A DNA stretch of 58,522 nucleotides from an uncultured Deferribacteraceae bacterium (GTDB lineage: Bacteria > Chrysiogenota > Deferribacteres > Deferribacterales > Mucispirillaceae): the NCBI GenBank assembly GCA_947039395.1, contig CAMQYS010000009.1, positions 1 to 58,522 on the forward strand, written 5' to 3'. Positions 1 to 58,522 of this stretch are shown piece by piece. Within the stretch, counting starts at the first letter, position 1. Every line of letters begins with the position of its first letter. The position numbers and the translations under genes were made by a program. The notes under the pieces are model-generated. The model was not told the origin of the DNA, did no database searches, and worked only from the letters and a program-made list of their open reading frames with translations.

Positions 1-2
1 AT

Positions 3-1043: not shown

Positions 1044-1059
1044 GAGAGGAATTTTATTT

Positions 1060-6682: not shown

Positions 6683-6696
6683 TAAAGAGGTCATAA

Positions 6697-10173: not shown

Positions 10174-10182
10174 GGGGAATAG

Positions 10183-11785: not shown

Positions 11786-11803
11786 TTATAAAAGGAGCTA
11801 CTC

Positions 11804-13843: not shown

Positions 13844-13888
13844 CAGAAGTTTTATCCAATAAAAAAATAGTATTTAAGGAGAAAAGAA

Positions 13889-14173
13889 ATGATAAGAATT
13901 ATTTTATGTTTAGTAACAGTAGCAGTAGTAATAATGCCAGAGTTAGGTTATTCAGCATCAGCAGATGCAGCCGAGTTAGATGATGTATGGAATAAACTCA
14001 AAGTTGGAATAGCAGGTACATACGGTAAAATCGCATCGTTAGGAATTGTAATAGCGTCTATATGGAATAGAGAGCGTATCGGAATGATGGGTATGGGTGG
14101 TGGTATTATTATCGGCGTTATGATCCCTACCGTACCTGCAATTATCGACAAGCTCGGCACAGTAACATTTTAA
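13889..14173 (+). CDS. traA: TraA/VirB2-family pilin precursor
   Basis: 94 residues. A signal peptide ends near YSASA, giving a mature peptide of about 70 residues with two hydrophobic segments (GTYGKIASLGIVIAS, and the Gly/Met/Ile-rich GMGGGIIIGVMIPTVPAII). Size and topology match F-type pilins. A strong AAGGAG site lies 7-8 bases before the ATG, expected for an abundant subunit. It stands directly before traL, as in F. The leader peptidase could be the S26 enzyme upstream. Confidence 0.85.
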   Translation: MIRIILCLVTVAVVIMPELGYSASADAAELDDVWNKLKVGIAGTYGKIASLGIVIASIWNRERIGMMGMGGGIIIGVMIPTVPAIIDKLGTVTF

Positions 14174-14174
14174 T

Positions 14175-14474
14175 ATGAGTAACGCTAGATATATCCCTAA
14201 ATATTTAGATGCACAACCTCAGTTCTTATGGTTTGAATTAGATGAAGCAATGATCTTACTTATGGGACTTGTTACAGGAAGAATGTTAGATCAGATGCCA
14301 CTATTTATAGTCACCTCTTTTCTAGTTCAGAAAGTATACTCACGTCTAAAGAATGCAAAACAGACAGGGTTTGTGCAACACACATTATACGCACTAGGGC
14401 TTGTCAAATTTAAAAGTAATCTAGGGAAATTTAAAAAGATCCCTGATTACTATATAAAATTTTACGTTAAATAA
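14175..14474 (+). CDS. traL: TraL, VirB3-like inner-membrane protein
   Basis: 99 residues: IPKYLDAQPQFLWFELDE at the N-terminus, typical of TraL, followed by paired hydrophobic segments (MILLMGLVTGRMLDQMPLFIV) and a basic C-terminus. It starts 1 base after the pilin stop. TraL/VirB3 works with the TraC ATPase at the inner membrane in pilus assembly. Length agrees with the family (about 90-100). Confidence 0.9.
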   Translation: MSNARYIPKYLDAQPQFLWFELDEAMILLMGLVTGRMLDQMPLFIVTSFLVQKVYSRLKNAKQTGFVQHTLYALGLVKFKSNLGKFKKIPDYYIKFYVK

Positions 14475-14485
14475 TAGGATAAAAA

Positions 14486-15040
14486 ATGAAGACTAAATTT
14501 TTCAATGAATGGGATAAACTTAAAATGAGAGACAATATCAACTTTTATATAATTGTGATACTTGCAGTTATACTTGTTGTTCAAACGATTGCTATAATTA
14601 ATATCGTACAGAATAGAACTGTTGTAATACTACCTCCTCAAGTAGATCAAGAGTTTCAAATTGTAGGCAATACGTTATCTAAATCGTATCTTGAACAGGT
14701 ATCATTTTATATATCAGATCGGATAATGTCTCTCTCTCCTAGCAATGCAAAAGTGAGTTTAGAGAGTATCGCTCCGTTCTTATCAACAGATGTTGAGCAT
14801 TTAAAAGTTATTAAAAAAACGTTAGAGAAAGAAGCCGAACTAATCATATCTGAGAACTTGTTTCAATCGTTCTACCCTAACAAATTTCAGATAAATGAGA
14901 AAGATAAAATCATGACTGTTACAGGCGTACTTAGAAAATATATCGGAGATATGTTCGTGCAGTCTAAAGATCAAAAGATCGATTATCCGTATGAGATCAA
15001 ATCAGGCAGATTAATTATTAAAGGAGTTAATATAAGATGA
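14486..15040 (+). CDS. traE: TraE, VirB5/VirB8-like channel protein
   Basis: 184 residues: one N-terminal membrane helix (about 22-42, IIVILAVILVVQTIAIINIV) and a periplasmic domain with VVILPPQVDQEFQIVGN, SKSYLEQVSFYISDRIMSLSP and GDMFVQSKDQKIDYPYEI, the pattern of TraE. Usual length is about 190. Start GGATAAAAAATG. Its stop overlaps the traK ATG by 4 bases. Confidence 0.9.
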   Translation: MKTKFFNEWDKLKMRDNINFYIIVILAVILVVQTIAIINIVQNRTVVILPPQVDQEFQIVGNTLSKSYLEQVSFYISDRIMSLSPSNAKVSLESIAPFLSTDVEHLKVIKKTLEKEAELIISENLFQSFYPNKFQINEKDKIMTVTGVLRKYIGDMFVQSKDQKIDYPYEIKSGRLIIKGVNIR

Positions 15041-16026
15041 AATTATTAACCGTATTCATATTACTAACTATCTCTACAACTGTTTATGCAGATTTTGTTC
15101 CACGATTTGCAACAGCTAATATAAGAGAAGAAGCAAGTATAAATTCAACGATCATAGAAACAGTTCAAAGAGGAGCTGTACTTAAAGATTTAAAAAATGT
15201 ACGTCAAGGATTGAACAGTAGATTTTGGTATTATATCGAGACACCAACTGGTTTAAAAGGGTACGTTGCATCAGATATTATAAATGATTTTGAGTTAAGA
15301 GATGTAGCGTTACCTATAAAAAAATCTACTACCAATACTGTGAAAAACAGTAATACAACTGTTGTTTCTGATAACACACTCCATAGAGTAAATATATCGT
15401 TGAAAAATCTTAATAGACTTAGTTGTGGATCAAAAATATCTGATCCTATTTACAGTAAAGATAAAGAGTTTGAAGTTGTGCGTGGAGGTGATAAAGATCT
15501 ATTCTTAAAAATCTCTCCTATTAAAACAACTACGGCTGATGGAGTAACTGAGATCAAATTTAATACATTTGAAAGAGAGTTGTTTGTTGAGTGTTTAGGT
15601 AAGATTTATAACTTCACTTTTATACCAGTTGATAACCTACCTACTCAAACAATTATTATCGAATCAACTTTTCAAGAGATCGAAAAAGCACGCAACACGG
15701 AACGTATATCTGATTATGAAGAGTTAATTTATAGTTTAGTAAAACACGCATATCTTGAACAGATACCTGTAGGTTATAAAATGAGTAAAGGTAATTTAGC
15801 TTATCAGTTTAAAGAGTTAGAAATTAAGTTGCGTTACGTCTATAAAGGGTACGATTATGTTGTTGAAGATTGGGAGATAAAATCTGTATCCCCTCAAGTT
15901 ATAGATTTAGATGAGAGCAGTTTTATACCTTATATTAAATCAGCAAGAGCTGTAACATTTGTTGCACCACGATTATCTAAAAACGAGAAGACGAGAATGT
16001 TAGTTGTACGTCTCAACAGTAATTAA
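15037..16026 (+). CDS. traK: TraK (secretin-like) with an N-terminal SH3 domain
   Basis: 329 residues, longer than F TraK (about 240). After a signal peptide (cleavage after VYA) comes a bacterial SH3-like domain, about residues 20-85: ATANIREEASINSTIIETV...GAVLKDL...WYYIETPTGLKGYVASD. A Ser/Thr/Asn linker leads to the TraK domain (RVNISLKNLNRLSCG..., FTFIPVDNLPTQTIII...). TraK forms the outer-membrane ring with TraV and TraB. SH3 domains of this type usually bind cell-wall peptides, so the fusion may add a peptidoglycan anchor. Confidence 0.8.
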   Translation: MKLLTVFILLTISTTVYADFVPRFATANIREEASINSTIIETVQRGAVLKDLKNVRQGLNSRFWYYIETPTGLKGYVASDIINDFELRDVALPIKKSTTNTVKNSNTTVVSDNTLHRVNISLKNLNRLSCGSKISDPIYSKDKEFEVVRGGDKDLFLKISPIKTTTADGVTEIKFNTFERELFVECLGKIYNFTFIPVDNLPTQTIIIESTFQEIEKARNTERISDYEELIYSLVKHAYLEQIPVGYKMSKGNLAYQFKELEIKLRYVYKGYDYVVEDWEIKSVSPQVIDLDESSFIPYIKSARAVTFVAPRLSKNEKTRMLVVRLNSN

Positions 16027-16028
16027 TT

Positions 16029-16826
16029 ATGAAGATATTACTATATTTTTTACTACTAACATTACTATTAACTGGAGTTATAAATGCTGAAATTTTTAAT
16101 AGAGATGAAACCATGAAGAAAGGTATTGAGCTAGGTGCAAACGATATAAATCTTTTAGGTAACGATAAGTTTAAGAAAGAGGCAAACGAACTATACGATA
16201 TTATAACTAATACCGTTAAGCCAAGAGCTAACGAGATTGCCGAAACTATAAGCTTTGATAACTCAACTGGTGTTATTCATTTCAATCGTACAGTACCTAA
16301 AAATGATAGTAAAAAATTAGCAAAAAATATGGGTAATATTTTAAGAGATGATGAGAGAATTTATATATTTATTTCATCATCAATACCGATCGATGTTTTA
16401 AAAAGATACGCTACAGATATAGATCTATTAGGGATAGGCAGAAACACAGTTTTCATATTAAGAGGTTGTATTGATACAGGTAAAGGCGTTGGTGGTTGTG
16501 GCGATTTTAAAGCTACCGTAAACTTTTTTAAATCATTTGCAGAAGATAAAAAGGATAGTATCTATAATGTTCAAATTTGGATAGACCCTACCCTATTTAA
16601 AAAATACGATATTACTTCTGCTCCTACATTTGTTTATGCAGAGGGTATAACTTTATCAGGCGATATAGGATCAGAGGGATCAGATCAAAGATTAATCTCA
16701 ACACCTAAATATAGTAAAAGTTTAGGCGATTGGAGTTTTGATTATCATCTAAGAGAGTTACAACGCAGTTCAAACTCTAATACACTTAAAAATATTTTAG
16801 AGGGTTATAGTGATGATAAAAATTAA
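16029..16826 (+). CDS. trbC: TrbC, F-type pilin assembly protein
   Basis: 265 residues: signal peptide (cleavage near INAE) and a thioredoxin-like fold domain with IYIFISSSIPIDVLKRYATD, VFILRGCIDTG and a late IWIDPTLFKKYDITSAPTFVY. This is the TrbC/TraW-C pattern (FVSxSMP..L......, RG......T...). It works with TraW in the periplasm. It follows traK by 2 bases and overlaps the next small gene. Confidence 0.85.
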   Translation: MKILLYFLLLTLLLTGVINAEIFNRDETMKKGIELGANDINLLGNDKFKKEANELYDIITNTVKPRANEIAETISFDNSTGVIHFNRTVPKNDSKKLAKNMGNILRDDERIYIFISSSIPIDVLKRYATDIDLLGIGRNTVFILRGCIDTGKGVGGCGDFKATVNFFKSFAEDKKDSIYNVQIWIDPTLFKKYDITSAPTFVYAEGITLSGDIGSEGSDQRLISTPKYSKSLGDWSFDYHLRELQRSSNSNTLKNILEGYSDDKN

Positions 16827-17103
16827 AAATATATTAAATAATATTAGTAAGAGAATAACTTTTCCTAAACCTAAAATTATATCTATGAATAGATTCTATT
16901 TATCACTTTTTATATTCACTATAATTTTGTTTATAATTCAAATAACCTTTTTTCCAAGCAGTAATGTTGTTGTGTTTTCAAAACTGTACGGATTTATATT
17001 TTTCATCATTCCGATGATTATGTTTATATATTATTTTATTAGATTTATTCAGAATTTTAAAACACGAAAAAAACAGAGTAACGGAAATAATTATGACAAA
17101 TAA
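16813..17103 (+). CDS. Small two-helix membrane protein in tra operon
   Basis: 96 residues from the ATG at 16813 (GTG at 16810 is possible). Two hydrophobic segments, about residues 29-46 and 60-80, are separated by a short polar loop, with basic ends facing the cytoplasm. It overlaps trbC by 14 bases and traG by 11. No family recognised. By position it might be an assembly factor or entry-exclusion protein, but nothing in the sequence decides this. Confidence 0.65.
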   Translation: MIKIKNILNNISKRITFPKPKIISMNRFYLSLFIFTIILFIIQITFFPSSNVVVFSKLYGFIFFIIPMIMFIYYFIRFIQNFKTRKKQSNGNNYDK

Positions 17104-19495
17104 ATTTCTATCAAAAAGTATATTGGCAGTAGCGATGATTTTACTTCCAACGATCGTATCGGCTGCACCTGCTTATGAAGTTCATGCGTGGGGTTACGGC
17201 GATCTACTGTACAACGTCCTTCAAGCAACTAAAGTTCTTATAGGCTCAAACAACTATCTAAAAATGGTTCAAATCGCATTAACGATCGGTATAATGATAA
17301 CTGTATTATCGTTAATGAATGCGAAAGATTTTTCAATTTTTATGGTTGGACAGAAAGTTGTTGTAGGTGTTTTACTATATACTTTCATCGTTGGTAGCAG
17401 TACAGATGTTGTTATAACCGATCATACAACTGGTAAAACTCGTGATATCAGAAGTGTACCATCAGTAATTGGATTTCCTCTATACCTCTTTTCAAATTTA
17501 GAAAGAGGAGCAAGCGAACTTTTTAGAACATCACTCGCAATGACAGAGGGTTCGCTCACAGCACTCGGATCAGTACCAGTAACTACAGGGTATGATTTAC
17601 TATACACAGCAAGTAACTATCGTATTCAAGATCCTAAACTTAATCAAACTATAAATCAGTTTATACAGAACTGTGTTTACCCTGATGTTTTATCAGGATT
17701 TTTAGATCTATCAACATTAGGATCAGCAAATTTTTGGCAATCACTTTCAGGCAACACCCACCCTGCAAGAATATCAGGTATATACGAAGGCAAAACTGAT
17801 TTGATAGATGGAAAACTTAATCCATGTCCAGCAGTGTATACATATATAGATAACACCTTAGCTACATATACTAATAAAGGTGGAACAGGATTTAAACGAC
17901 TAGCAGCATCAATGGGGTTTTTAACTGCTGATACGGTATCAAGTACGTTAGGCACAATATCGAAACAATCATTCGGTTACGGTCAGAACGGTTCTATGTT
18001 TTTAAAGAATGCGATAGCTATGAATTCATTTAATGATGCGTATGTGCAGACTGCATCACAGGTAGGTATAGATTCATCAGCGTTAGCGTATGGTATGGCA
18101 AAAGGTAGCGAAACGACTGCAACACAGATGACGTTATCAGGGATAATGGCAAAGAAATATATGCCTTTCACAAAAGGTTTTATGACGGTTATATTGATCG
18201 CACTTATACCGTTAATTTTACTGATCGCACTAGCTACTAATTCACTTCGTAAACCTGCAGGAATGATTATAGGTATTTTAACTGCGTTGTCGTTATGGTC
18301 GATAGGAGCTCAATTGTTAGACTTCTTTATTTTGATAAGAACTCGTGAGATGTTAGAGACTGTTGCAACAGCTGGTGGAGAGTATTCACTAACAACAAAA
18401 CCGATAATTGATTCATCGATACTTGACTCAATAAATATGGCTATGAGTATGTATTGGATGATCCCTACCCTATCATTTGCAGTAGCCTCAATGAACGGTT
18501 ATGCAGCATCACAAATGATGAGTGGAGCAGGAGCAGCAGCGAACAGTGCAGTAGGTGGAGCAGCTGGCGAGATCGCCTCAGGATCAAGATCAATGGGCGT
18601 TGTCCGTGAAAATATGATGAGTGCAAATAAGTATGATGGAGCATCAAGCTTTAACTCAGGACAAAGCAGTCAAATGACTAACTCTAACTCTATTGTAGGC
18701 AAAAATGATAAAAATATTAGTGCAGATACAAAGAGTAGTGAAATGTATTCGTACGATGGTAGTCATAACGTAAACACTAGCAGCAATATCAACAGTAGCG
18801 ACAATGTAAACAATAGCAGTAATGTAAATAGTAGCAACAACGTAAACACTAGCAGCAATATAAACAGTAGCGACAACGTAAATAGTAGCCGTAATATAAA
18901 CACTAGCAATAACGAAAACAGTAGTAACAACATCAACAGTAGTGATAATAGAAATAGTTCAACAAATATTAATGACGAAACAAATATCAAAGAAGGATTA
19001 AATCTGTCAGGATCAGTTCAAACAGGTAGTACAGGAGACTCTATAGCACTTAAAGAATTAGCAAGTACAATGAACAATGAGGAAGCTAAAAACTTTCCAG
19101 CATCATTAAGAGGTAGTACATCATATTCTCCTCAAACAGTAGCCATGCAAGAACAAACAGCAGCAAGTATAGCTAGTCAAATGGCTGCATATTCAACACA
19201 AACGGAAGCTCAAAACGTTAGCACGAATGTGAAAGCAGACACAGGAGGATTTTTACCTTTTTTTAGTGCTAGCGTAAGTAAAGGAGATCAAACTCTTGAA
19301 ACTCAAAATTTATATCAACAAGAACTTGCAGATATAATGAAGGACTCTAACTCTACAAATATAGAGACAAATGTACAAAATTACCTAAATGAAAAGCTAG
19401 GTGATGATAACAACTTAAAACTTATTGATCTTAAAACAGAAAAGGTTGAAATAGATCCTACTAAAGAGGACAAAGTGTCAAGAACTGATTTCTAG
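17093..19495 (+). CDS. traG: TraG N-terminal-domain protein with long Asn/Ser repeat
   Basis: 800 residues: signal-like helix, then TraG-N features (YEVHAWGYGDLLYNVLQATKV, several membrane segments up to about residue 420, and MIPTLSFAVASMNGYAASQMMSGAG). From about 560 to 625 there is a low-complexity run built on an 18-bp DNA unit (18765-18960) coding N-V/I-N-S/T-S-S/N. The polar C-terminal tail is about 170 residues. TraG acts in pilus assembly and mating-pair stabilisation, and its C-terminal part is exposed and variable. It ends the plus-strand transfer operon. Confidence 0.88.
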   Translation: MTNKFLSKSILAVAMILLPTIVSAAPAYEVHAWGYGDLLYNVLQATKVLIGSNNYLKMVQIALTIGIMITVLSLMNAKDFSIFMVGQKVVVGVLLYTFIVGSSTDVVITDHTTGKTRDIRSVPSVIGFPLYLFSNLERGASELFRTSLAMTEGSLTALGSVPVTTGYDLLYTASNYRIQDPKLNQTINQFIQNCVYPDVLSGFLDLSTLGSANFWQSLSGNTHPARISGIYEGKTDLIDGKLNPCPAVYTYIDNTLATYTNKGGTGFKRLAASMGFLTADTVSSTLGTISKQSFGYGQNGSMFLKNAIAMNSFNDAYVQTASQVGIDSSALAYGMAKGSETTATQMTLSGIMAKKYMPFTKGFMTVILIALIPLILLIALATNSLRKPAGMIIGILTALSLWSIGAQLLDFFILIRTREMLETVATAGGEYSLTTKPIIDSSILDSINMAMSMYWMIPTLSFAVASMNGYAASQMMSGAGAAANSAVGGAAGEIASGSRSMGVVRENMMSANKYDGASSFNSGQSSQMTNSNSIVGKNDKNISADTKSSEMYSYDGSHNVNTSSNINSSDNVNNSSNVNSSNNVNTSSNINSSDNVNSSRNINTSNNENSSNNINSSDNRNSSTNINDETNIKEGLNLSGSVQTGSTGDSIALKELASTMNNEEAKNFPASLRGSTSYSPQTVAMQEQTAASIASQMAAYSTQTEAQNVSTNVKADTGGFLPFFSASVSKGDQTLETQNLYQQELADIMKDSNSTNIETNVQNYLNEKLGDDNNLKLIDLKTEKVEIDPTKEDKVSRTDF
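18765..18960 (+). repeat. 18-bp minisatellite inside traG
   Basis: Ten or so imperfect copies of an 18-bp unit of the kind GTAAACACTAGCAGCAAT encode alternating Asn and Ser/Thr residues. Such in-frame repeats can change in number by slippage or recombination without breaking the frame, so linker length may vary between strains. Confidence 0.8.
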
Positions 19496-39090: not shown

Positions 39091-40770
39091 TTACTCATAA
39101 AAACTTTTCATTTCATCTCGCATCTTTTGTTGTTTCTCTATCAAGCTATCATTATCTAACATTCCTCCTGGTTCTTTCAGTTCAGGGATAAGAACAATAT
39201 CTATATATGCTTTCATATCTTCAGAAAACTCAGGGTCATCCATATTGATCTTTCCTAATTCATCAACTGTTATACCTCTACAATCAGGTGTTGAAGGTTT
39301 TTTTTGGTACTCAAAATATTTACTTATGAACTCTAAATTCTCTCCCCATGTAATTTCTTTAGGTATCTGATCTCTTGCTGCAACATTAAACGCTTTCGCT
39401 AACGGAGAATCGAAACAACAATATATCGATGCTCTTCTTTTACATTCTGACATATCCTTATCCATAAAGTAATATGTCTTAGACCAGTCTTTACAATACT
39501 CTCCAATAATTTCACAAGAACCGTTATTACTTGATACTGCTCTTAACACTGAAAGTTGTTTCTCTTCATCAGTTGGCATATCAGCTAGGTTCTCAAGAAG
39601 AAATTTTGTAAATAGTTTAATCAATAGTTGTCCAGGAGCAACTAAATATCCAAGCCCACCACCTAAACTTGTCGCATCAAAAAACTTATTAAGTCCATCT
39701 AACATAGCTTTTTTTGTATTGTTATCTAAATTAGATATCAAGCATTGGTCAGGCGATGTTAAATCATTTGAAAGAATACCCTCTCCTTTATGTCTACAAT
39801 TATATTGCTTGCCATTAAACAATATAATATCATTAATATCACAACTAGTAACATTATCTTCCATTGTTATATTATCAGTTACAGTTGTATTATCCGTAGG
39901 TAAAATTTGATCAGGGTTGAGATTTATATCACCAGATATAACTCCACAAGGCGACGTTGAACAGAAATAATCTTTACCTTTATTTTCTGAAACACATGGA
40001 AGTGATCGATCAGATTCACAGTATACCGTTACATCATCTTTATTAAATAATACTGGTACTTTCACATTAATCACAGGGTTTTCTAATATCCCTTTTTTAC
40101 TTAAATGTCTATTTTCTCCAGCTAAGATAGATACTGAACTATTAATAGGTTCATCATCCCAAAAAAGCCATCCTTTCTTAATCGTAACAAAATTTAATGT
40201 TATAGGTGTTTTTTTAAGTGCTTCATAATCTATCTCAGCATCAATAGTTTCTTCAATCTTTTCTAATAGATTTAATGCACCGTAAGGAAATGGTTCAGGC
40301 TTAACATAATCATCATATTGATTAAGATAAACTTTTTCTAAAGTATCGTTAATTTCAAAATATGCCCCCTCGCCGTGTCTCTTTATCTTTTTTGTACGAT
40401 CATACATATACACTTCAGTCCATTTGTACTCAAAATCTACAAAACCAGGGACTTTCGTTGCAATTGTTTCTACCATACATTTCTCTTTAAATTTTACCAT
40501 TGGACAAACCTTAGATATTTTATCTTCATCGTAATTACCGATTACCGTATCTAAGTTTTCCTCCTCAGTCACTTTATCTTTATTGAATGTTCCATAACTT
40601 TTACAAGGTGTAAAAACAGGCTCTTTACCGTATGACTCATCTTGACATACGATACACTCTGTTTCACCTACTCCACATAAAGCATTCATAAGATCATCGC
40701 CAGTAACTGCATATAGATTTACACTTGATAACATAAAAATATACGTTACCATTAATATTATTTTTTTCAT
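39091..40770 (-). CDS. traN: Second TraN-like mating-pair protein
   Basis: 559 residues: signal peptide (cleavage after LYA), about 25 cysteines, and a C-terminal module with EIIGEYCKDWSKTYYFMDKD, CKRRASIYCCFDSPLAKAF and TPDCRGITVDELGKI. That is the conserved C-terminal part of TraN-family proteins (YC......C....SYCCF.S.LA..., DCRG). The other TraN (11804) lacks this module, so TraN functions may be divided or duplicated. It is the last gene of the minus operon; its start overlaps the traH stop by one base. Confidence 0.75.
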   Translation of the reverse strand: MKKIILMVTYIFMLSSVNLYAVTGDDLMNALCGVGETECIVCQDESYGKEPVFTPCKSYGTFNKDKVTEEENLDTVIGNYDEDKISKVCPMVKFKEKCMVETIATKVPGFVDFEYKWTEVYMYDRTKKIKRHGEGAYFEINDTLEKVYLNQYDDYVKPEPFPYGALNLLEKIEETIDAEIDYEALKKTPITLNFVTIKKGWLFWDDEPINSSVSILAGENRHLSKKGILENPVINVKVPVLFNKDDVTVYCESDRSLPCVSENKGKDYFCSTSPCGVISGDINLNPDQILPTDNTTVTDNITMEDNVTSCDINDIILFNGKQYNCRHKGEGILSNDLTSPDQCLISNLDNNTKKAMLDGLNKFFDATSLGGGLGYLVAPGQLLIKLFTKFLLENLADMPTDEEKQLSVLRAVSSNNGSCEIIGEYCKDWSKTYYFMDKDMSECKRRASIYCCFDSPLAKAFNVAARDQIPKEITWGENLEFISKYFEYQKKPSTPDCRGITVDELGKINMDDPEFSEDMKAYIDIVLIPELKEPGGMLDNDSLIEKQQKMRDEMKSFYE

Positions 40771-42320
40771 TATTTACCAACTCCTAATGCAGATGAACTT
40801 GCAGATATAACTGGGTGTCTGTTTAATTGTGCTTGCATATTTTTTGTAGTTATTTCAAGTGAATCTAATGTTCTATTTCTATCATTATAAGCATCGAATG
40901 CGTCTGCATATAATGAGTATGAGTACTCACTCATTTCTCTTAATATCTTTCTCATACTATCAATACCTTCTTTAAAGCTAGCCTCATTATTAATTAATTT
41001 GTATTTTTTAATCTCAGTTTCTAAAAGAGATAAATGAACTAACATCTCTTGAGTGATTAACGATATAGTTTCATAAGCCAGTTGAACACCTGCCAATATT
41101 TTAAAGTTCTCTATGAAACTTTTAAAAAGCTGAGGATTAGCAGAAGTGGTATTTAATATTTTATAGATAGGAGATTTAAAAGTGGATAAAAAATTAAGTT
41201 GGTCTTCATTTAACGCATGACGACTATTAAAATTTATTTCTATTCCATTAATATTTTTAATACTTGTTCCAACAAAACTTTCAATTTTATTGGGAGCAAC
41301 TTTATTCTCATGGTCTCGCCCATTAAAATTAATTTCAATATTACTCTCATCAAACTTAAAAGCTTTATCTTTTAGTTTTTTAGGATCTAAATTTTCATCA
41401 CCAGCAATCCAATAGTTAATTGCTTTTTGCATATCTTCTATACTATTAGCACGAACTGAAGAAAAGTAAACAATATCGACACTACCCTCTCCACCATCAT
41501 CTCCTTCTTTTATATCGAGTATGATATCTCCAGTAAATGATCTCACAATAGTAATTAATCCACTTATATGTTTTGTTGGATCATCGCCACCTTCTGCCAT
41601 ACCTAAATTTTCAAAACGTTTACTCCTAGAAAAAATAGTTTGTAAAAAAGTAGCATCGCCTACAAAAAATGTTTTAGGACATTTAAACGAACTAGTCGTA
41701 ACAACATCTTCAAGACAGATATCATCAACTGCATCTTTTATTCCCTGCATTAAATCTTTCATACCTGTATTCACTTTTTTTAATCCATCATTAAATGAAT
41801 CGGTTAACCCTGATGTAACACCCATATTTGTAGCAGCGGCTGAGACTAAATCGCCTCCCATATTAACAGCAGTTTTTGCAACATTACATGAATCTAAATC
41901 CATACTATTTAACGTATTCGCTGCCTCTCCAAGTGTGTTCATTAGATCGGTACATTGAGGACATAGAGTTTGCATAGCAAGATTAAAAGCGTACCCTGTA
42001 GAGTTTGAAACAACCTGTTTCATGAACTTAATAATATCATCGCCATTAACATGTTTAAAACCTCCCCAATCGATATCTATTCCGTTACAACCTGCCTTGA
42101 TCGATGGTGCACTTGCAGAGAACATTTTTAAGTTTCCACTCTCTACTGCGAACTTATATCCACCACCTGAATAATATGTTCCTCCTTGCGTGTCATACGT
42201 TGCAGGCGAGTTCGACTCTATACTACTAGCAAGTCCTGACAACCAACCTGCATTTGCCTGACTGCTTAAACTACCAAAAATTATTATAGTAGTTAGCAGT
42301 TTAATTAATTGTATTTTCAT
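40770..42320 (-). CDS. traH: TraH, F-type pilus assembly protein
   Basis: 516 residues from the ATG at 42320 (AGGAGA 8 bases upstream; the ATG at 42326 is too close to it). Signal peptide (cleavage after ANA), then GWLSGLASSIESNSPATYDTQ, YYSGGGYKFAVES, AGCNGIDIDWGGF and LAMQTLCPQC, all typical TraH. Coiled coil near the C-terminus. TraH is periplasmic, disulfide-bonded and needed for pilus extension. The start overlaps traF. Confidence 0.93.
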   Translation of the reverse strand: MKIQLIKLLTTIIIFGSLSSQANAGWLSGLASSIESNSPATYDTQGGTYYSGGGYKFAVESGNLKMFSASAPSIKAGCNGIDIDWGGFKHVNGDDIIKFMKQVVSNSTGYAFNLAMQTLCPQCTDLMNTLGEAANTLNSMDLDSCNVAKTAVNMGGDLVSAAATNMGVTSGLTDSFNDGLKKVNTGMKDLMQGIKDAVDDICLEDVVTTSSFKCPKTFFVGDATFLQTIFSRSKRFENLGMAEGGDDPTKHISGLITIVRSFTGDIILDIKEGDDGGEGSVDIVYFSSVRANSIEDMQKAINYWIAGDENLDPKKLKDKAFKFDESNIEINFNGRDHENKVAPNKIESFVGTSIKNINGIEINFNSRHALNEDQLNFLSTFKSPIYKILNTTSANPQLFKSFIENFKILAGVQLAYETISLITQEMLVHLSLLETEIKKYKLINNEASFKEGIDSMRKILREMSEYSYSLYADAFDAYNDRNRTLDSLEITTKNMQAQLNRHPVISASSSALGVGK

Positions 42321-43137
42321 CAACATCTTCTCCTAAATATTTTAACCCATAAATTATTGCAGAAATCATATCTGGCAATGTGTGTAGACCTGTTGCGATA
42401 CGTTGATACTTTGTGCCATTAGAATTAACGGCTAGAAATATATCAGGTGTAGTTTCAATTCCAAACTTCTCTATCATCTCATTTTTACCTGATACATCGA
42501 TCGTTACATAATCAAAACCGTACTTACGTTTAAGCTCATTTAAGATAGGTATCTGTCTTTTACAAAACTCACAAGTTGGCGATACAAAAATTATCAACCC
42601 TGCTTTTTGAGAGTAGTTTTTTAGAATATTATCTACATTCTCATTCGCAACAACTCTTGAAACAGAACTTTCAAAATGTCCCCTTTTACTAGAGTTCATT
42701 AACCCTGCTAAAAGATCGTTAGGGTTTTCTGTTCTAACCATTCGATCCTCATTCATAAAAGCTACCGTCTTATTTTGTATCCACTGAGAGAGTTTTCTAT
42801 ACTCCAATATATTCTCTTCAGTTGGATAAGTTATGGCCACTTTGCGTGCTTGAGGCTCTATGATTTTTGCAATCTGATCAGGATCAATTCTATCGATTTT
42901 ATCCCACGGTATATTCTGCGTATCTTCTAAAATAGTATAATTATCTTTGCTCTCAACAATAGGATCACTCACAATAGGCACACACTCTTTCTTCCAATAC
43001 CAACCTTTATCTGCATTACCATCATTCCAAAATCTTTTCTCATTACAGTTGTTAGACTCTTCACTCATGCCACCTGCTAATAATAAATTGAAACTACACA
43101 TCAGCAATATTATGGATATAATAAATTTATATATCAT
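42301..43137 (-). CDS. traF: TraF, thioredoxin-like pilus assembly protein
   Basis: 278 residues from the ATG at 43137 (GGCAGG upstream). Signal peptide (cleavage near LLAGG), a helical N-terminal domain with CNEKRFWNDGNADKGWYWKKEC, and a thioredoxin domain with FVSPTCEFCKRQ (active-site C-E-F-C). F TraF usually lacks the CxxC pair, but many relatives keep it, and here it is intact. With the DsbC-like gene at 3811 it forms a disulfide pathway for TraU, TraH and TraN. Confidence 0.9.
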   Translation of the reverse strand: MIYKFIISIILLMCSFNLLLAGGMSEESNNCNEKRFWNDGNADKGWYWKKECVPIVSDPIVESKDNYTILEDTQNIPWDKIDRIDPDQIAKIIEPQARKVAITYPTEENILEYRKLSQWIQNKTVAFMNEDRMVRTENPNDLLAGLMNSSKRGHFESSVSRVVANENVDNILKNYSQKAGLIIFVSPTCEFCKRQIPILNELKRKYGFDYVTIDVSGKNEMIEKFGIETTPDIFLAVNSNGTKYQRIATGLHTLPDMISAIIYGLKYLGEDVDENTIN

Positions 43138-43152
43138 ACTTATCACCTGCCA

Positions 43153-44756: not shown

Positions 44757-45164
44757 TTAAAAATTAACCATTAACGTGTCATTATCTTCAACTAAACTAT
44801 CACTATCTTCAGCAGATGTTTCCTGAGTAGTATGTGTTTCTTTAGTAGTAGATTTCTCAACAATAAGAGTAGCTGGGTTTATCTCTACAGCGACTTCTGT
44901 ATCGATCGCCATATCTACATCTTTTGCATCACTGCTCTTCTCATGGACGACGGTATCGATAATCTTCTCTGCTTTTTTATTATCTACAGCCACTCTTTTT
45001 TGAGTTTTATTATTTGGATTACCGAATGTTTTTAGAATTTCTCTATACTCATCTGTCTGCATATAGTTTTTGATAGCCTCTTTAACTACATGCCTTTTAA
45101 CATCTTGAGGTAGAGTATCTATCTCTAAATATTTCTCATCCTTTTTTGTGATTGATATTCGCAT
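44757..45164 (-). CDS. Probable ParR/StbB-like partner of ParM
   Basis: 135 residues. Basic N-terminal half (RISITKKDEKYLEID, PQDVKRHVVKEAIKNYM), then an acidic Thr/Glu-rich tail. It overlaps the 3' end of the actin-like gene by 29 bases, as adaptor genes do in ParMR loci, where ParR binds the centromere and ParM filament ends. No sequence signature proves it; the call rests on size, charge and position. Confidence 0.5.
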   Translation of the reverse strand: MRISITKKDEKYLEIDTLPQDVKRHVVKEAIKNYMQTDEYREILKTFGNPNNKTQKRVAVDNKKAEKIIDTVVHEKSSDAKDVDMAIDTEVAVEINPATLIVEKSTTKETHTTQETSAEDSDSLVEDNDTLMVNF

Positions 45165-46104
45165 TATTCAATCTTCCTCTTACGTTTTGTTTATAGAAAC
45201 CTCTAGCATTTGAGTATTCAGCAAGCTCATCTCCTAGAAAAAGAATCCTTTTTTTATTATCCTCATTTATATACTCTTTGATTAATGCCGTTCCACCACC
45301 TGAGAAGATAACTAAATCAGCTTTCTCTAAAACCTCATTTGCTTTAATGAAGAGTTCATTTACTATTTTATCTGTGTACTCTTTTATGAGTTCTGTACAG
45401 ATATCAGTAATATCTTCAGATAGTCCATACCCAACATATCTTTTTGTTTCTAAAATTTTTTTTGCTTTAAACTCATCAACACTATGTTTGTATTTCTTTC
45501 CAAGCTTATCCATCAACTTAACAACGATTTGACAGATACCTTTATTATCTAGCATGAACGATAATGTAGAATCAGCACTACCTTTAATGATTGACAAGAC
45601 ATCAATTGTGTTGTAACCGATATCTATTATTGCTGCATTATTGATAATATTCTTTCGCTGTGCATGGTCGTCATACATATAGTCGTAAGCTATACCTGCA
45701 CCTTGTGGCAAAACATTAACATTGAAACTATAATCTTTTCCATCTGCTCTAAAACGAGTAACATTGTTTTTGATTTCATCTTTATTGTCTTTATAAAAAC
45801 CTAACGGTAAGCCTAATGTAACATCATGGAAGTCTGCGAACCGTTTTGCATAAGCTATAATCAATGGAGTGTACTCTCTCAAAAAACCAGTCGTTCTAGT
45901 GGGTAGAGGATCGTGTAGTAACGCTTCTTCTCCTAACATATATTTTTTGCTTTTATATGAGATCACTATTTTCTTACTTGCGAACGATCCTAAATCTACG
46001 CCTTGTCCATAATCGATTGCGACAGCTGTAGGGAACTTAAAATATTTATCTCTACACCATACTTTTGTATCTCCAAACCCTATATCTATACCTGCTACTT
46101 TCAT
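45136..46104 (-). CDS. parM: ParM/StbA actin-like segregation ATPase
   Basis: 322 residues: phosphate 1 AGIDIGFGDTKVW, then TLGLPLGFYK, phosphate 2 AAIIDIGYNTIDVLSI and adenosine motif LVIFSGGGTALI, the actin-fold order of ParM/StbA. Length matches (about 320-330). It polymerises to push plasmid copies apart, which implies an extrachromosomal or replicating stage of this element. A GAGAGGG ribosome site precedes the ATG. Confidence 0.9.
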   Translation of the reverse strand: MKVAGIDIGFGDTKVWCRDKYFKFPTAVAIDYGQGVDLGSFASKKIVISYKSKKYMLGEEALLHDPLPTRTTGFLREYTPLIIAYAKRFADFHDVTLGLPLGFYKDNKDEIKNNVTRFRADGKDYSFNVNVLPQGAGIAYDYMYDDHAQRKNIINNAAIIDIGYNTIDVLSIIKGSADSTLSFMLDNKGICQIVVKLMDKLGKKYKHSVDEFKAKKILETKRYVGYGLSEDITDICTELIKEYTDKIVNELFIKANEVLEKADLVIFSGGGTALIKEYINEDNKKRILFLGDELAEYSNARGFYKQNVRGRLNNANINHKKG

Positions 46105-46473: not shown

Positions 46474-46504
46474 TACCTATATATATCAACGCCTTGTTCG
46501 AGAG
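46474..46504 (-). promoter_or_regulatory. Conserved operon promoter motif, copy 4 (variant)
   Basis: Read on the minus strand: TCTCTCGAACAAGGCG and then TTGATATATATAGGTA. It keeps the CGAACAAGGC and ATATAT parts of the 30-bp motif. The ATG at 46443 follows 31 bases on, behind AAGAGGTGAT. Confidence 0.65.
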
Positions 46505-48854: not shown

Positions 48855-48884
48855 ACCCTTATATATCAGAGCCTTGTTCGAGAA
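48855..48884 (-). promoter_or_regulatory. Conserved 30-bp operon promoter motif, copy 2
   Basis: Exact reverse complement of bases 1014-1043, so it reads toward the minus-strand operon. All 30 positions agree, including the spacer, which is far more conservation than a plain -35/-10 promoter needs. Confidence 0.8.
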
Positions 48885-52926: not shown

Positions 52927-52956
52927 ATCTCGAACAAGCCTCTGATATATAAGGGT
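52927..52956 (+). promoter_or_regulatory. Conserved 30-bp operon promoter motif, copy 3
   Basis: ATCTCGAACAAGCC followed by TCTGATATATAAGGGT; 28 of 30 bases agree with 1014-1043. The Toprim gene ATG follows at 52987 behind TTGGAGGT. Confidence 0.75.
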
Positions 52957-52986: not shown

Positions 52987-53880
52987 ATGGATAAGTTTAT
53001 GGAGATCGCAAAAGAGTTAGGTTTAATTATCGACAAACCGATAGCAAACGGAAGTATTCAGAGAGTGGCAGTTGAAGGAACTAAAAAGGCTAGTGCAAAA
53101 GATGGAGCATACTGTATTTACAACAATCCAAATGGTACAGCTGGGTGGATCAGCAATAACAGAACTGGAGAGTATAAAACTGTATCGATATCAGGAGAGG
53201 TTAATGAGTATCAAAAAGGATTAAACACTTATAATCCAAAAGAAAACAATCTAAGACAAAATGAAAAAGCAAGTCAAGCAACTTATCTTATTACTAAAAT
53301 CTTTAAAAAAGCTTTATATCATAAGTATTTATGTTTTAAAAAAATATCGCCTTACGGAGCATTAGTTGATAACTACGGCGTACTAATAATCCCTTTACAA
53401 AATATTAAAGGCGAATATCGTTCATTTCAACGTATCTATGAAGACGGCAGTAAATCGTTCTTTACAGGTGGACAGAAAAAAGAGTGTTTCTTTCTGATAG
53501 GTAAACAGATCGATAAAGAAGTTATCATCTGTGAGGGATATTCAACGGCTACAACGATCTATCAAGCAACTAAAATCCCTACAATCGCAGCGATGGATGC
53601 AGGTAATATTGAGCCAGTAGCAAAAGCAGTAAGAGATCAATACGGCAAATATCTGAACATTGTTATTGCAGGCGATGACGATGCTTTAAGAGATGATAAT
53701 CCTGGACGAAAATATGCAACTAAAGCTGCAGAATCTGTCGGAGCAAGTATCGTTTTTCCTGAGTTCACAGAACGAGAAATAGTTGATGGACTTACAGATT
53801 TTAATGATTTGTATGTTGTTAGTGATAACAAAAGAGTGCGATTGTTTTTTGAAAAACATTCTGTTATATCAGTTGACTAA
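52987..53880 (+). CDS. Toprim-domain primase-like protein
   Basis: 297 residues. N-terminal part resembling TraC/DUF-type primase accessory regions (AYCIYNNPNGTAGWISNN), then a Toprim domain: VIICEGYSTATTIYQ (Toprim Glu), IPTIAAMDAGN and IVIAGDDDALRDDNPG (the D-x-D part), KAAESVGASIVFPEF, GLTDFNDLYV. It lacks a helicase domain. It probably makes primers on transferred single strands in the recipient. It is the first gene of a unit with the integrase under the conserved motif. Confidence 0.8.
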   Translation: MDKFMEIAKELGLIIDKPIANGSIQRVAVEGTKKASAKDGAYCIYNNPNGTAGWISNNRTGEYKTVSISGEVNEYQKGLNTYNPKENNLRQNEKASQATYLITKIFKKALYHKYLCFKKISPYGALVDNYGVLIIPLQNIKGEYRSFQRIYEDGSKSFFTGGQKKECFFLIGKQIDKEVIICEGYSTATTIYQATKIPTIAAMDAGNIEPVAKAVRDQYGKYLNIVIAGDDDALRDDNPGRKYATKAAESVGASIVFPEFTEREIVDGLTDFNDLYVVSDNKRVRLFFEKHSVISVD

Positions 53881-53906: not shown

Positions 53907-54842
53907 ATGAAAGAATCAAATTTTGAAACAACAGTATTAAGCAGTTTATCTGATATCGCGAACTTGTTATCATTTACAAATATCAGAGAGGTAGAGGAGA
54001 TCAAAAAGACATATCTAAAAGATTATATATTAGATAAGTATAAGCCGTATTATATAGCAAAAGCTAAGAAAATGTCATCGATTAAAAGTGATCTTATTAG
54101 ATTAGGAGCAATTCTAAATCATCCTATATCTGAGCTAGCGATAGAAGATATTAAAACACATGATATCGAATTATTCTTAATATCGATAGAGAAGATGGGT
54201 AGAAGTAAAGCTACTATAAATCGTTATAGATCAAGGTTAAATGCTATTTTTAATCATGCAATAATTAATGATATTATAATTAAAAATGTTGTAAAAGGAG
54301 TAAAACAATATAAAGAACAAGGTAGAGATATTGCATTAACTGATGAGGAGATAGAAAAGGTATTAAAAGAAGCTAAAGCAAGTAAAAATAAGGAGTTATA
54401 TTTGATATTAATGATTGCTCTTAATACTGGTATGAGGCGAGGAGAGATTTTGAATTTACGAAAGGATAATCTCGTTGGATTGACTATAGTTTTGTTCGAT
54501 AATGAAACTAAATCAGGATATAAAAGAGTTATCCCAATTAACGATACTTTAAGAGAGCAGATTAAAATTCATTTAAGTGATATACTGTTAGATGAAAACA
54601 GGATTTTCAAATCTAAAGATATACGCACAGCATTTGCGAATGCTAGAAAGAGAGCAGGATTACGCTATTTTAGGATTCATGATCTAAGACGTACATTTGC
54701 AACAAAGTTGAAAGATAAAGATGTCAATCTCCATGATTTAAAAGAACTTTTAGGACATTGTAGTGTAGCGATGACAGAGAAATATCTAACAACAAGCATC
54801 TACACGTTAATGAAAGCTGTGAATAAGATAGCATATAGGTAG
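53907..54842 (+). CDS. int: Tyrosine recombinase (integrase/excisionase)
   Basis: 311 residues. N-terminal SAM-like core-binding domain (about 45-140) and catalytic domain with NTGMRRGEIL (Arg I), RIHDLRRTFATKL (His-x-x-Arg), LKELLGHCSVAMTEKYL (His and the Tyr nucleophile). Length and motifs fit ICE and phage integrases. It follows the Toprim gene on the same transcript, and the tRNA-Leu fragment 3.6 kb downstream is the probable target. Confidence 0.92.
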   Translation: MKESNFETTVLSSLSDIANLLSFTNIREVEEIKKTYLKDYILDKYKPYYIAKAKKMSSIKSDLIRLGAILNHPISELAIEDIKTHDIELFLISIEKMGRSKATINRYRSRLNAIFNHAIINDIIIKNVVKGVKQYKEQGRDIALTDEEIEKVLKEAKASKNKELYLILMIALNTGMRRGEILNLRKDNLVGLTIVLFDNETKSGYKRVIPINDTLREQIKIHLSDILLDENRIFKSKDIRTAFANARKRAGLRYFRIHDLRRTFATKLKDKDVNLHDLKELLGHCSVAMTEKYLTTSIYTLMKAVNKIAYR

Positions 54843-55272: not shown

Positions 55273-56301
55273 ATGCCTACTATTAAAAGCGTAACAGATT
55301 TCATGCAATGGATCAGAGTAGAACGCCTATATAATGAGTATTGTGAAAACATGCATTGCCACCTAGAACATCAAGACTTTCTAAATGAAGTGTTTCCAAC
55401 ATCAAATAATTATAAGAACCATCAAGATAAGGCAGAAGATAAACTCTATTACGAAATTTATGAGAAATATCCCAATCTATTTGAATATACAACAACTGAA
55501 ATTGAAGAGATAAAATTGATATTAACAGACAGCTCTCTAATGCCTAAGGTAAACTCTCTATTTTTTAGAGGGCAAGGAAATCAAGAGTGGACTTTACTAC
55601 CCTCTGTTTTTAGAGATGATTTTTTAGAGGGAGAATCTGCAATATACAACGATGCGTTGAGTGATAGACCTTCTGATTTTTCTTCAACAAATACTATATT
55701 AGAAAACCTAATCATTATGCAACATCATGGACTGCCTACACGATTGCTAGATGTTACATCAAACCCTTTAGTGGCTTTATATTTTGCTTGTCAAAATATA
55801 GATCTCGATGGACGTGTGTTTATGTTTGACAGTAGATTAAGCTCACTTAAATCTGTTAATTTATTTACTCAATATGTCCATATGGAAATATATGACAACC
55901 TTGAAGATGTGCCAAAATTTATAGACTACGATTGCAATCACTCATACTCTAAAGATAGGCTTCTTTTTCAATCTCCTAAAATTAATAACCGTGTTATTGC
56001 TCAGGCTGGAACATTTTTTATCTATGGACATAAAAATATAGGCGAGATATATAACGAAACTTATCAAATTGATGACGAGGATAGAAGTATTCATATAGAT
56101 GCTGATGGAGAGCGAGAAGATGTTTTTATAACCTTAAAAGATATACCTGATGCATCTAACGATGATGAAATTAGTGTATTAATTCCTAAGAAGAATAAAG
56201 AGTATATCCTTAATGAGTTAAACACCTTAAATATCAATCAAGCATCTTTATTTCTTGATTTGGATAATTATAGTGCTTATGTTAAATCTAAATATAAATA
56301 A
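55273..56301 (+). CDS. FRG-domain protein 1
   Basis: 342 residues. FRG domain: LFFRGQGNQEWTLLPSVFRDD near residue 97, then MQHHGLPTRLLDVTSNPLVALYFAC (Gly-Leu-Pro-Thr-Arg-Leu-Leu-Asp, the family signature) near 155. Later IAQAGTFFIYG, and a C-terminal NINQASLFLDLDNYSAYVK. FRG proteins are common in phage-defence islands. It shares these blocks with the gene at 57066. It is coupled to the hsdM-like fragment. Confidence 0.85.
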   Translation: MPTIKSVTDFMQWIRVERLYNEYCENMHCHLEHQDFLNEVFPTSNNYKNHQDKAEDKLYYEIYEKYPNLFEYTTTEIEEIKLILTDSSLMPKVNSLFFRGQGNQEWTLLPSVFRDDFLEGESAIYNDALSDRPSDFSSTNTILENLIIMQHHGLPTRLLDVTSNPLVALYFACQNIDLDGRVFMFDSRLSSLKSVNLFTQYVHMEIYDNLEDVPKFIDYDCNHSYSKDRLLFQSPKINNRVIAQAGTFFIYGHKNIGEIYNETYQIDDEDRSIHIDADGEREDVFITLKDIPDASNDDEISVLIPKKNKEYILNELNTLNINQASLFLDLDNYSAYVKSKYK

Positions 56302-56318
56302 CTTGATAAGGTGTGAAA

Positions 56319-56378
56319 ATGTTTACTGAAAAAATAGATAAAAAACATACCTTAAAAATAATGGAGCTTAAAATATGA
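56319..56378 (+). CDS. Possible 19-aa leader peptide
   Basis: Short frame MFTEKIDKKHTLKIMELKI, overlapping the DUF4145 ATG by 4 bases; AAGGTGTG upstream. It may simply couple translation. Confidence 0.3.
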   Translation: MFTEKIDKKHTLKIMELKI

Positions 56379-57007
56379 TAGAAGAAAAAATATTGTCTTG
56401 TGATGATGACTATGCTAAATGCCCTAAATGTGGTGTGAATCTAAGTTGGGCATGGATTAAGTATGGATATAATAGTTATCAAAGTTGCCCGCATGTAGGA
56501 TCTTTTACAAGATGTAACCACTGTAAGCAAATATTTCTAGCTCTTGGGGATGAGATAGTCTATCCTCGTATTACTTCTCATATCAAACCTCATGAGTTAT
56601 TCACAGAATATCCTAAATCTGAAAAGTTATTTAAGGAGTCTTTAGCTGTAGCTAGCGATTCTCCACGTGCAGGATTAACATTATCTCGTATGTGTTTAGA
56701 GTGTTTAGTTCACGAAATATTAATTGAACGAAATGAAAAGCCTAGCGATAATTTTTCAGTAAATATAAAAAAATTGCTTGAACTAGAAATCATTACTAAT
56801 AAAATTAAAAATCTATTAGATGATACAAGAGTTATCGGCAATAAATCTACTCACAATTTCAATTTAATTGATAGTGAGAATGAAGTAGTTCTTGATGATT
56901 GTATGGTTGTATGGAAAGCGATCAATCATATTTTAGAATCTCTATCATCTGTACAAAAACTTGATGCAGATATAACTAATCTAAAAGACAAAGTCAAAGA
57001 GAAATAA
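56375..57007 (+). CDS. DUF4145-domain protein
   Basis: 210 residues. N-terminal zinc ribbon (AKCPKCGVNL...FTRCNHCKQIF), then the DUF4145 core SEKLFKESLAVASDSPRAGLTLSRMCLE followed by CLVHEILIERN, DDTRVIGNKSTHNFN and a helical end. DUF4145 domains occur in type I restriction HsdR proteins and other defence genes. It is flanked by the two FRG genes, so a three-gene system is likely. Confidence 0.82.
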   Translation: MIEEKILSCDDDYAKCPKCGVNLSWAWIKYGYNSYQSCPHVGSFTRCNHCKQIFLALGDEIVYPRITSHIKPHELFTEYPKSEKLFKESLAVASDSPRAGLTLSRMCLECLVHEILIERNEKPSDNFSVNIKKLLELEIITNKIKNLLDDTRVIGNKSTHNFNLIDSENEVVLDDCMVVWKAINHILESLSSVQKLDADITNLKDKVKEK

Positions 57008-57065
57008 AAGACTAAAGCAACAAGTGATATTCTCATTACGCACCTCATGAAAGGAGATATATATA

Positions 57066-58178
57066 ATGTCAAAAAATACTGAAATAACCAATCTAGTTGA
57101 ATTTATAGAATGGGCTCAACAATCTACTCTTGAAGACAAAGTCATATTAGATGAAAAAACCGAATTTAATGTTTTTTTTGAAGAGTATAGTCATAACAAA
57201 CAATTAAATAAAAATTGGGAAGAGTTATACAGACAAAAAAATGGCATTCTCAAACAGTTAGAGGTTGTAAACCTACTATTAGAAATACAAAACCTAGACA
57301 GTTCAAGAACTTCAATAAAATATATAAATTTAATGAAGAACTTTGCTACACAAAAAAGAAAGCTAAATGAATTTGAAGATTTGAAAAGACAAGTTGAGAA
57401 ACATAATTTATTAACCAAAGAAAAAATAGAGAATTATTTTAAAGATGAAAAATCTAAATCAATTAAAAGATTTTTTCGTGGATACTCAAACTCTATTTGG
57501 AAACTAGAACCAATTTTGTTTAGACATAACTATCTAGAACATGAACATGATATATATAAACAAGCACTAAGAGATTATCCTAAAGAGTTTAACCATAATT
57601 CAGTTTTAGATAATCTTGTCCACATGCAACATTATGGACTGCCAACTCGATTACTGGATATCACATCAAACCCGTTAGTAGCTCTCTATTTTGCAACTGA
57701 TCCTACAGTAGATGCCGATGGAAAAGTTTTTATGGTTTTAGAAGATACTAGCTCTGATATAGAAATTCAAAATAATCTAGAAATATTAGCACAACTTGTA
57801 AACATAGAATGTAATCATAAATTAGAGACAAATATCCTTTTTCACGAACTCTATAAAAAAACTAATATCAATACCCCATATTCAGAAATAAACTTAAATC
57901 ATTTTAAAGAAGAAAAACTGCTCTTTTCTGCCAATAAGATAAATAGTAGAATAATCGCACAAGCGGGAGAGTTTTATCTTTTTGGAAATCTTGATCCATC
58001 TAACAAGAAACAAAAATGTCCATGTGCGGGAACCTTAAAAGACGACATAAGTATTATTATCCCTAAACAACATAAAAAAGATATTAGAGAAAAACTTGAT
58101 CTACTGAATATTAATCAACCCTTCTTATTCCCTGATTTAGATAGCTACGGCAAGTATATAAAAAATAAGTACAAATAG
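57066..58178 (+). CDS. FRG-domain protein 2
   Basis: 370 residues. A coiled-coil-like region (about 45-130) precedes the FRG domain: RFFRGYSNSIWKLEPILFRHN and MQHYGLPTRLLDITSNPLVALYFAT. Later IAQAGEFYLFGN and NINQPFLFPDLDSYGKYIK. It is a paralogue of the protein at 55273 with a different N-terminal region. A strong AAAGGAGAT site precedes the ATG. Confidence 0.85.
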   Translation: MSKNTEITNLVEFIEWAQQSTLEDKVILDEKTEFNVFFEEYSHNKQLNKNWEELYRQKNGILKQLEVVNLLLEIQNLDSSRTSIKYINLMKNFATQKRKLNEFEDLKRQVEKHNLLTKEKIENYFKDEKSKSIKRFFRGYSNSIWKLEPILFRHNYLEHEHDIYKQALRDYPKEFNHNSVLDNLVHMQHYGLPTRLLDITSNPLVALYFATDPTVDADGKVFMVLEDTSSDIEIQNNLEILAQLVNIECNHKLETNILFHELYKKTNINTPYSEINLNHFKEEKLLFSANKINSRIIAQAGEFYLFGNLDPSNKKQKCPCAGTLKDDISIIIPKQHKKDIREKLDLLNINQPFLFPDLDSYGKYIKNKYK

Positions 58179-58355: not shown

Positions 58356-58385
58356 TTGACAATTATCAACCGATATGAGTAATAT
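58356..58385 (+). promoter_or_regulatory. Promoter pointing out of the element
   Basis: TTGACA (58356-58361), 18-bp spacer and TAATAT (58380-58385), followed by GGAGGGG and the ATG at 58418. It transcribes toward the tRNA-Leu fragment on the opposite strand. Confidence 0.6.
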
Positions 58386-58417
58386 ATGAATGAAATATAC
58401 TTATGGAGGGGTTTTAA

Positions 58418-58522
58418 ATGTTTATTGAAAATGATTTTGAATTGAATGACTTTTTACATACACAGGTTTTTAAATCCCTTGCGTCTACCTATTCCGCCAC
58501 TCGGGCTGATTTTATATTCCTT
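58418..58522 (+). CDS. Partial gene crossing the tRNA junction
   Basis: Open frame with a good ribosome site, beginning MFIENDFELNDFLHTQVFKS and still open at the window end. From about residue 17 its codons are the complement of the tRNA-Leu 5' half. The N-terminal part is probably a real element gene whose 3' end in the free circle differs; the integrated form would have a chimeric tail. Confidence 0.4.
   Translation, partial: MFIENDFELNDFLHTQVFKSLASTYSATRADFIFL
58468..58506 (-). tRNA. 5' half of tRNA-Leu(UAA), element junction
   Basis: On the minus strand: acceptor GCCCGAG, TG, D-arm GCG...CGC, anticodon stem AGGGA and loop TTTAAAA with anticodon TAA. After loop position 38 the expected TCCCT arm is absent and the sequence reads ACCTGTG. 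So only positions 1-38 are present, and the break lies at the anticodon loop, a classic tyrosine-recombinase crossover point. The 3' half is not in this window. Confidence 0.85.

Follow-up and report, generated by a model that had tools for sequence, protein, structure and literature searches.

The window, by which we mean the whole stretch of 58,522 nucleotides analysed here, is almost the whole of an F-type integrative conjugative element (ICE) of a Deferribacteraceae-like gut bacterium. To judge from its relatives, the element is a member of a rare class that carries the 5' half of a tRNA gene together with the promoter of this tRNA, and that restores the tRNA at its other end. The explanation that we consider probable for the data as a whole is an ICE with such 5'-type ends, which would form a sigma factor switch that depends on excision.

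Judged from genes and ends alone, the window can be assigned to the ICEs: it has a site-specific recombinase as well as type IV secretion genes with a coupling protein. On the plus strand, a gene for a NusA-like protein (1042..1854; TIGR01953 with an E-value of 1.7e-8, below the cut-off) heads the transfer operon and is followed by a TraD/TraG-type coupling protein (1835..3202) and by the F-type transfer genes TrbI/TraB, TraV, TraC, S26 peptidase, TraU, TraE, TraK, TrbC and TraG_N (5339..19495). The minus strand encodes TraN, TraH and TraF (39091..43146) and an actin-like (ParM/Alp-type) partition protein (45136..46104). A Toprim-domain protein (52987..53880) and a tyrosine recombinase (53907..54842; PF00589, E-value 2.9e-25) are encoded on the plus strand. 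Copies of this integrase in the genomes G001, G002 and G003 are 90-94% identical, and all other integrases in the five genomes searched have at most 40% identity to it. A Pfam scan that covered 50 out of the 70 window ORFs with at least 80 amino acids found no relaxase family in these 50 at E<=1e-3.

At the right end of the window, the 39 nucleotides at 58468..58506 of the minus strand correspond to positions 1-38 of tRNA-Leu(UAA) and are followed by unrelated element sequence, exactly as in the earlier note, where the element end splits this tRNA at its anticodon loop. This attachment-site core is identical to the 5' half of an intact gene on contig C34 of the same draft genome (G000; 64 contigs, 2.11 Mb, with the window as contig C9). 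The adjacent 16 nucleotides of tRNA 5' flank (58507..58522, minus strand) are also present in C34 and in contig C13. Across the 58,522 nucleotides, ARAGORN predicted no tRNA and an Rfam scan found neither a tRNA nor any other RNA family. All 55 bases between 58468 and 58522 match the start of C34 (E-value 2.5e-22), and this identity to a contig start with an intact tRNA (L004:17-100) excludes a chance match. Three places in G000 matched when the intact gene was used as the query together with its flanks: the complete gene on C34 and 5' halves on C9 and C13. The 5' half on C13 is accompanied by a copy of the element end that is older and frame-shifted; reading L002 by eye, this half appears to adjoin formate-dehydrogenase-like genes.

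The number of tRNA-Leu(UAA) genes of the host, for which the earlier note had asked, is thus one intact copy in this draft. The note had also considered that the tRNA is truly broken and that a second tRNA-Leu(UAA) gene covers for it. The split copy on C9 does lack a 3' half, but the single intact gene of G000 is the one at the restored end on C34, and G002 has its restored gene at the left end of the element. We regard a broken tRNA as very unlikely and reject it, as far as a draft genome allows.

Among 99 relatives searched with the query DNA, 63 gave a match, mostly via the tRNA alone; the element end was also matched in four genomes of the same genus (G000-G003), and a second DNA scan identified 14 loci, all from uncultured Deferribacteraceae or Mucispirillum. 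In G002, a single contig contains both ends at a distance of 29,029 bp: the left one has an intact tRNA-Leu(UAA) and the right one has the displaced 5' half in the same orientation, which is the layout of a tRNA island with a 5' fragment. Contig C152 of G003 is an empty site: the tRNA is present and the element is absent. The 5' flank of the tRNA at this empty site is the flank of the displaced 5' half in G002; the flank of the restored tRNA in G002 is another one, which matches the left end in G001. These flank matches indicate that the element brings a tRNA promoter along with the 5' half of the gene. The earlier note was therefore correct that no 3' half comes from this element end, and also in its suggestion that a restored copy lies at the other end (on C34 in G000, at the left end in G002); its contrast with elements that restore the gene does not stand, as this element restores it by giving the 5' half and a promoter where other elements usually give the 3' half. 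The two element ends are on different contigs in G000, and it is in G002 and G003 that defined ends and an empty site are present, the ends of the window's own element being cut by contig breaks. An intron or an assembly chimera would fit a break at the anticodon loop, a site of introns and also the place where the window ends, but the same end structure is found in the independently assembled G001 and G002, Rfam finds nothing in the window, and a 29-kb element with an integrase as well as an empty site in G003 are at hand. Such a split is hardly credible, and we rejected it on the structures of G002 and G003.

The restored tRNA-Leu(UAA) of G002 (C4:21157-21240, L024) is located between two elements, one of the 5'-type and one of the 3'-type. 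The displaced 3' half of the 3'-type element is at G002:C48:6535-6608 (L121), beside another integrase, and both halves of the working tRNA-Leu(UAA) gene of this genome are apparently supplied by elements. At tRNA-Leu(CAA), too, this kind of element has left ends (L044 on G000:C8, L066, L077 and L079), most of them with broken sigma-like genes; tRNA-Leu(CAA) is a second target of the element family.

Position 58522 is a contig end at a repeat, where the observed sequence stops, and not the junction between element and chromosome for which the earlier note had taken it. The last 55 bp of the window (58468..58522) overlap exactly with the start of C34 and the first 55 bp (1..55) are those of the reverse complement of C53; both are branch points of the assembly at which identity ends after exactly 55 bases. 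The default k of metaSPAdes is 55, and overlaps of this length would be what a de Bruijn assembler at k=55 leaves at branches. In G001 and G002, the two 55-mers bound a stretch of 995 bp, their own length included; by these relatives, the window is one ICE that is 995 bp short of complete. Codons 62-273 of the window allele of the left-end gene are on no G000 contig, as if the missing piece, which would hold the closed junction, had been dropped under a 1-kb cut.

The exact 55 bp shared with C34 and C53 may also mean that the window end continues into the left end of another copy of the element, older and broken, as in a tandem array. We think this rather likely, and it is compatible with the switch: C53 carries an interrupted left-end gene, a junction on G001:C28 has a truncated copy of this gene and C13 has remnants of an older element. 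Against it, the contig graph equally allows a circle, from the window end to the window start, and C13 agrees with the 55 bases at 54 positions, so that the path may be a different one.

The switch would start at the right end, with a module that faces out of the element. It consists of a sigma-70-like promoter (TTGACA-18-TAATAT; 58356..58385, plus strand), a ribosome-binding site read from the sequence (GGAGGGG; 58405..58411, plus strand) and a leader ORF of 35 codons (58418..58522, plus strand) that is open to the contig end and, in the closed junction, crosses the attachment core. A promoter and an ORF running outward across the tRNA half had been described in the earlier note, and both are there. 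The match to the promoter consensus is weak evidence by itself, not being above chance: four promoter-like sites were found against a mean of 3.2 in shuffled sequences. Eight copies of the module, which include remnants that lack the tRNA core or have a decayed one, align from AACTAATC onward: TTGACA is exact in five and TAATAT in seven of these copies, GGAGG is part of the alignment, and all eight have the start region ATGTTT(A/G)TTGAAAATGATTTTGAATT. Outside the module most copies differ in sequence, and the tail of the leader peptide is poorly conserved. Searches of viral contigs did not find the leader DNA, and with the integrase they returned only 18 distant relatives of 22-25% identity.

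What the leader runs into can be seen on G001:C28, where right end and left end are contiguous. Here, the leader ORF is 58 codons long and ends in a TGA that overlaps with the ATG of the left-end gene (ATGA), a gene that in this copy is truncated after 36 codons. When the ends of G002 are joined in silico, the leader likewise has 58 codons and keeps the ATGA overlap; a right and a left end from tRNA-Leu(CAA) in G003, joined in the same way, give 83 codons with the overlap kept. By sequence, the circle would thus bring an outward promoter together with a co-oriented gene from the other end. In the integrated form of G002 the leader also has 58 codons, with a tail that is different from the reconstructed circular one, and this bears out the prediction that integration alters the tail of the 58418 gene.

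Four of six left ends, two at tRNA-Leu(UAA) and two at tRNA-Leu(CAA), keep the leader frame open to the ATGA. The distances from core to ATG in these four are 123, 123, 198 and 204, all multiples of three. The frame-keepers at tRNA-Leu(UAA), from G001 and G002, have an intact left-end gene; of the other two, G003:C180 (L077) shows the gene for 28 codons before the contig ends and G001:C76 (L079) has an internally deleted gene. The remaining two left ends (distances 194 and 215) are out of frame and have truncated sigma genes: the gene on G000:C8 matches over 61 codons and that on G002:C1 over 106 codons with a stop. When spacers were shuffled at fixed length, the frame stayed open in 236, 123, 8 and 23 of 2000 shuffles for the four frame-keepers, that is in 12% and 6% at tRNA-Leu(UAA), so that this type alone is weak evidence, and in 0.4% and 1.2% at tRNA-Leu(CAA). 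No GGAGG-like sequence precedes the ATG of the left-end gene. The interval between tRNA and left-end gene in L024 has four promoter-like sites, all on the minus strand, and no promoter-like site was found there on the plus strand.

These data have to be weighed against an ordinary 5'-type tRNA island, with a fortuitous leader, a right end that is an arm-binding sequence of the integrase and a left-end gene that is expressed in some other way. Such islands exist as a minority: the accessible text on Islander (Hudson et al. 2014, PMC4383910) counts 159 with a 5' tDNA fragment among 3919. The third positions of the first 15 leader codons hardly vary, as under constraint at the DNA level, and the openness of the tRNA-Leu(UAA) frames is not rare in shuffles. 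Yet the conserved module combines a promoter with a strong ribosome site and a start codon, the frame and its ATGA persist in four of the six left ends and at both tRNA genes, the two left ends without them having truncated genes, and L024 offers the sigma gene no plus-strand promoter-like site of its own. We consider an ordinary island unlikely, although it deserves to be taken seriously, and continue with the excision-dependent switch.

The window holds the C-terminal 227 amino acids of the left-end gene (3..686, plus strand), which correspond to residues 274-500 of the G002 protein with 97% identity. Homologues are present in 12 of the 99 relatives, at 26 loci, 15 of which have a tRNA gene for Leu(UAA), Leu(CAA), Asn, Phe or Arg within the fetched stretch (some loci share one tRNA). 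In this clade, the predicted identity as a sigma-70-like protein derives from relatives that are 28-31% identical. L089 passes TIGR02937 (47.3 bits, cut-off 42.9), and Sigma70_r4 is above its cut-off in three of the four relatives scanned (L089, L091 and L094), the fourth, L084, being below the sigma cut-offs; the left-end protein L081 (g1) has no sigma match by itself. A profile of 11 family members matches sigma factors in the PDB, with a best E-value of 2.7e-5 over residues 329-520. Weak Pfam matches suggest a winged-helix-like N-terminal part. The AlphaFold model of the left-end protein has a mean pLDDT of 56.7 and a pTM of 0.32; Foldseek returned winged-helix proteins of low TM with this model and was not used as evidence for a sigma factor. 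A plasmid collection searched with the left-end protein gave no match.

In most relatives the homologue of the left-end gene faces the 3' end of the tRNA, and the 5' arrangement was seen only in G000-G003. The 3'-type elements (L057, L059-L064, L067, L069-L071, L073 and L074) have the sigma-like gene behind the tRNA 3' end or a fragment of it; strong hairpins lie between tRNA and sigma-like gene at these loci, recalling the attenuating stem-loops of ICEKp1 int.

Candidate targets of this putative sigma factor are marked by a motif at the heads of the three main operons. Its first copy (GAACAAGnCTCTGATATATAAGGG) is at 1019..1042 (plus strand), the second at 48856..48879 (minus strand) and the third at 52932..52955 (plus strand); the 22 bp GAACAAGnnTCTGATATATAAG are exact at 1019, 48879 and 52932, and a weak possible fourth copy with three mismatches is at 46478..46499 (minus strand). 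Each copy shortly precedes a start codon: that of the NusA-like gene, that of the first gene of the minus-strand operon for partition and TraFHN, and that of the Toprim gene in front of the integrase. The flanking sequence differs among the three sites. G000, G001 and G002 have three exact copies each and the fragment G003:C148 has two, and there are no other exact copies in G000-G003; the search of the four genomes gave these 11 plus two strays with three mismatches, and the reversed control gave three matches. The triplet occurred in none of 100 shuffles, and a de novo search recovered the motif as an upstream motif with three copies. The same type of search in one 3'-type element of G005 returned only two-copy repeats and no clear three-copy analogue. 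The natural reading of the motif is an element-specific promoter; it does not have the standard -35/-10 spacing, and may instead be an operator for another regulator.

The following sequence of events would connect these observations. On integration, crossover at the anticodon loop joins the 3' half of the host gene to a 5' half and a promoter that the element provides, and the displaced original 5' half lands at the far end of the element, as the left end, right end and empty site of the relatives show. From the right end, the outward promoter and its strong ribosome site would start the leader ORF, antisense through the tRNA half. In the integrated state, the leader would enter host DNA and the sigma-like gene would be disconnected; with the ends joined, transcription and coupled translation could cross the core and reach the sigma-like gene, whose start overlaps with the leader stop. 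The sigma factor would then read the motif in front of the NusA-like/TraD/tra, partition/TraFHN and Toprim/integrase operons, the conjugation genes would come on after excision, and integrase from the same burst could reintegrate the element and so reset the switch. In its strictest form, with the element sigma factor made in the excised state only, recombination writing and erasing a conjugation operon by means of a coupled antisense-tRNA leader, and a sigma-driven integrase operon as the reset, we put this forward tentatively, as a real possibility.

If true, excision is itself the regulatory event, no separate sensor of the integrated or free state is needed, and an integrated copy cannot make the transfer genes. 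Sigma factors would join integrases and transfer operons as targets of end-joining switches, and one attachment site would be under three constraints at the same time, as half of a tRNA, as the promoter of this tRNA and as a translated leader. The upkeep of the rare 5'-type island would also be explained, because the element has to bring a functional tRNA promoter with it.

Parts of this anatomy are known from other elements. Transcription of the Tn916 transfer genes is said, in work of Celli and Trieu-Cuot from 1998, to pass through the joined ends and to need circularization. Transfer functions would depend on circularization in both cases; Tn916 is reported to use direct read-through into the transfer genes, and neither a sigma factor nor a tRNA is known to take part. 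In ICEKp1, ICEclc and ICEEc1, as far as the accessible text of PMC13023037 goes, a state-dependent promoter at one end likewise drives a gene of the other end through the joined ends; here, the sequence predicts such an arrangement. In those elements, the gene is the integrase, the tRNA 3' end is used and the integrated form also transcribes the integrase gene from the tRNA promoter, whereas here there are a sigma-like gene, a 5'-type end, divergence from the tRNA and a leader predicted to be translated across the core. The accessible part of a review (PMC8371274) describes pTN3-like archaeal elements, whose attB is a tRNA 5' half and whose restored tRNA uses an element-side promoter, as it appears to do here, and calls a 5'-half attB seldom met in bacteria; the promoter in question is that of the integrase in pTN3-like elements and a separate copy of the tRNA promoter here, with a divergent sigma-like gene as neighbour. 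The 5'-fragment islands of Islander share the element-supplied 5' half, the displaced 5' fragment at the other end and the anticodon-loop crossover, and the accessible text of PMC4383910 describes no leader/sigma switch such as the one proposed here. In mycobacteriophage BPs, too, a reading frame crosses the attachment site and integration changes the end of the protein, which according to the accessible text of PMC4557955 is a functional repressor, unlike the short and poorly conserved leader of the element. A limited literature search, which covered few subscription papers, found no element-encoded sigma factor gated by excision; it also gave no match for the combination of a sigma-like gene with a leader predicted to be translated across the core, which is weak evidence of novelty.

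The cargo genes at 55273..58178 (plus strand) encode a DUF4145 protein and two proteins with FRG domains, all defence-like; the FRG proteins match the PADLOC candidate PDC-S15 and the DUF4145 protein matches PD-T7-4. This slot adjoins the element end and holds other cargo in G001 and G002. Further cargo includes restriction-modification and AAA_13 (PrrC-like) proteins. Between 21800 and 25500 there is an array of small ORFs, each behind a similar leader (CAAACCCTAGAGGGA ... CCCTTTAGGG ... TCTTTTAGAGG) and several preceded by a terminator-like GTGGCTTATGCCAC-T stretch, which gives a repeated, cassette-like layout. Two further pairs of repeats (30139-30165/32599-32625 and 36320-36410/37920-38010) are located downstream or upstream of neighbouring cargo ORFs, which suggests duplicated cargo units.
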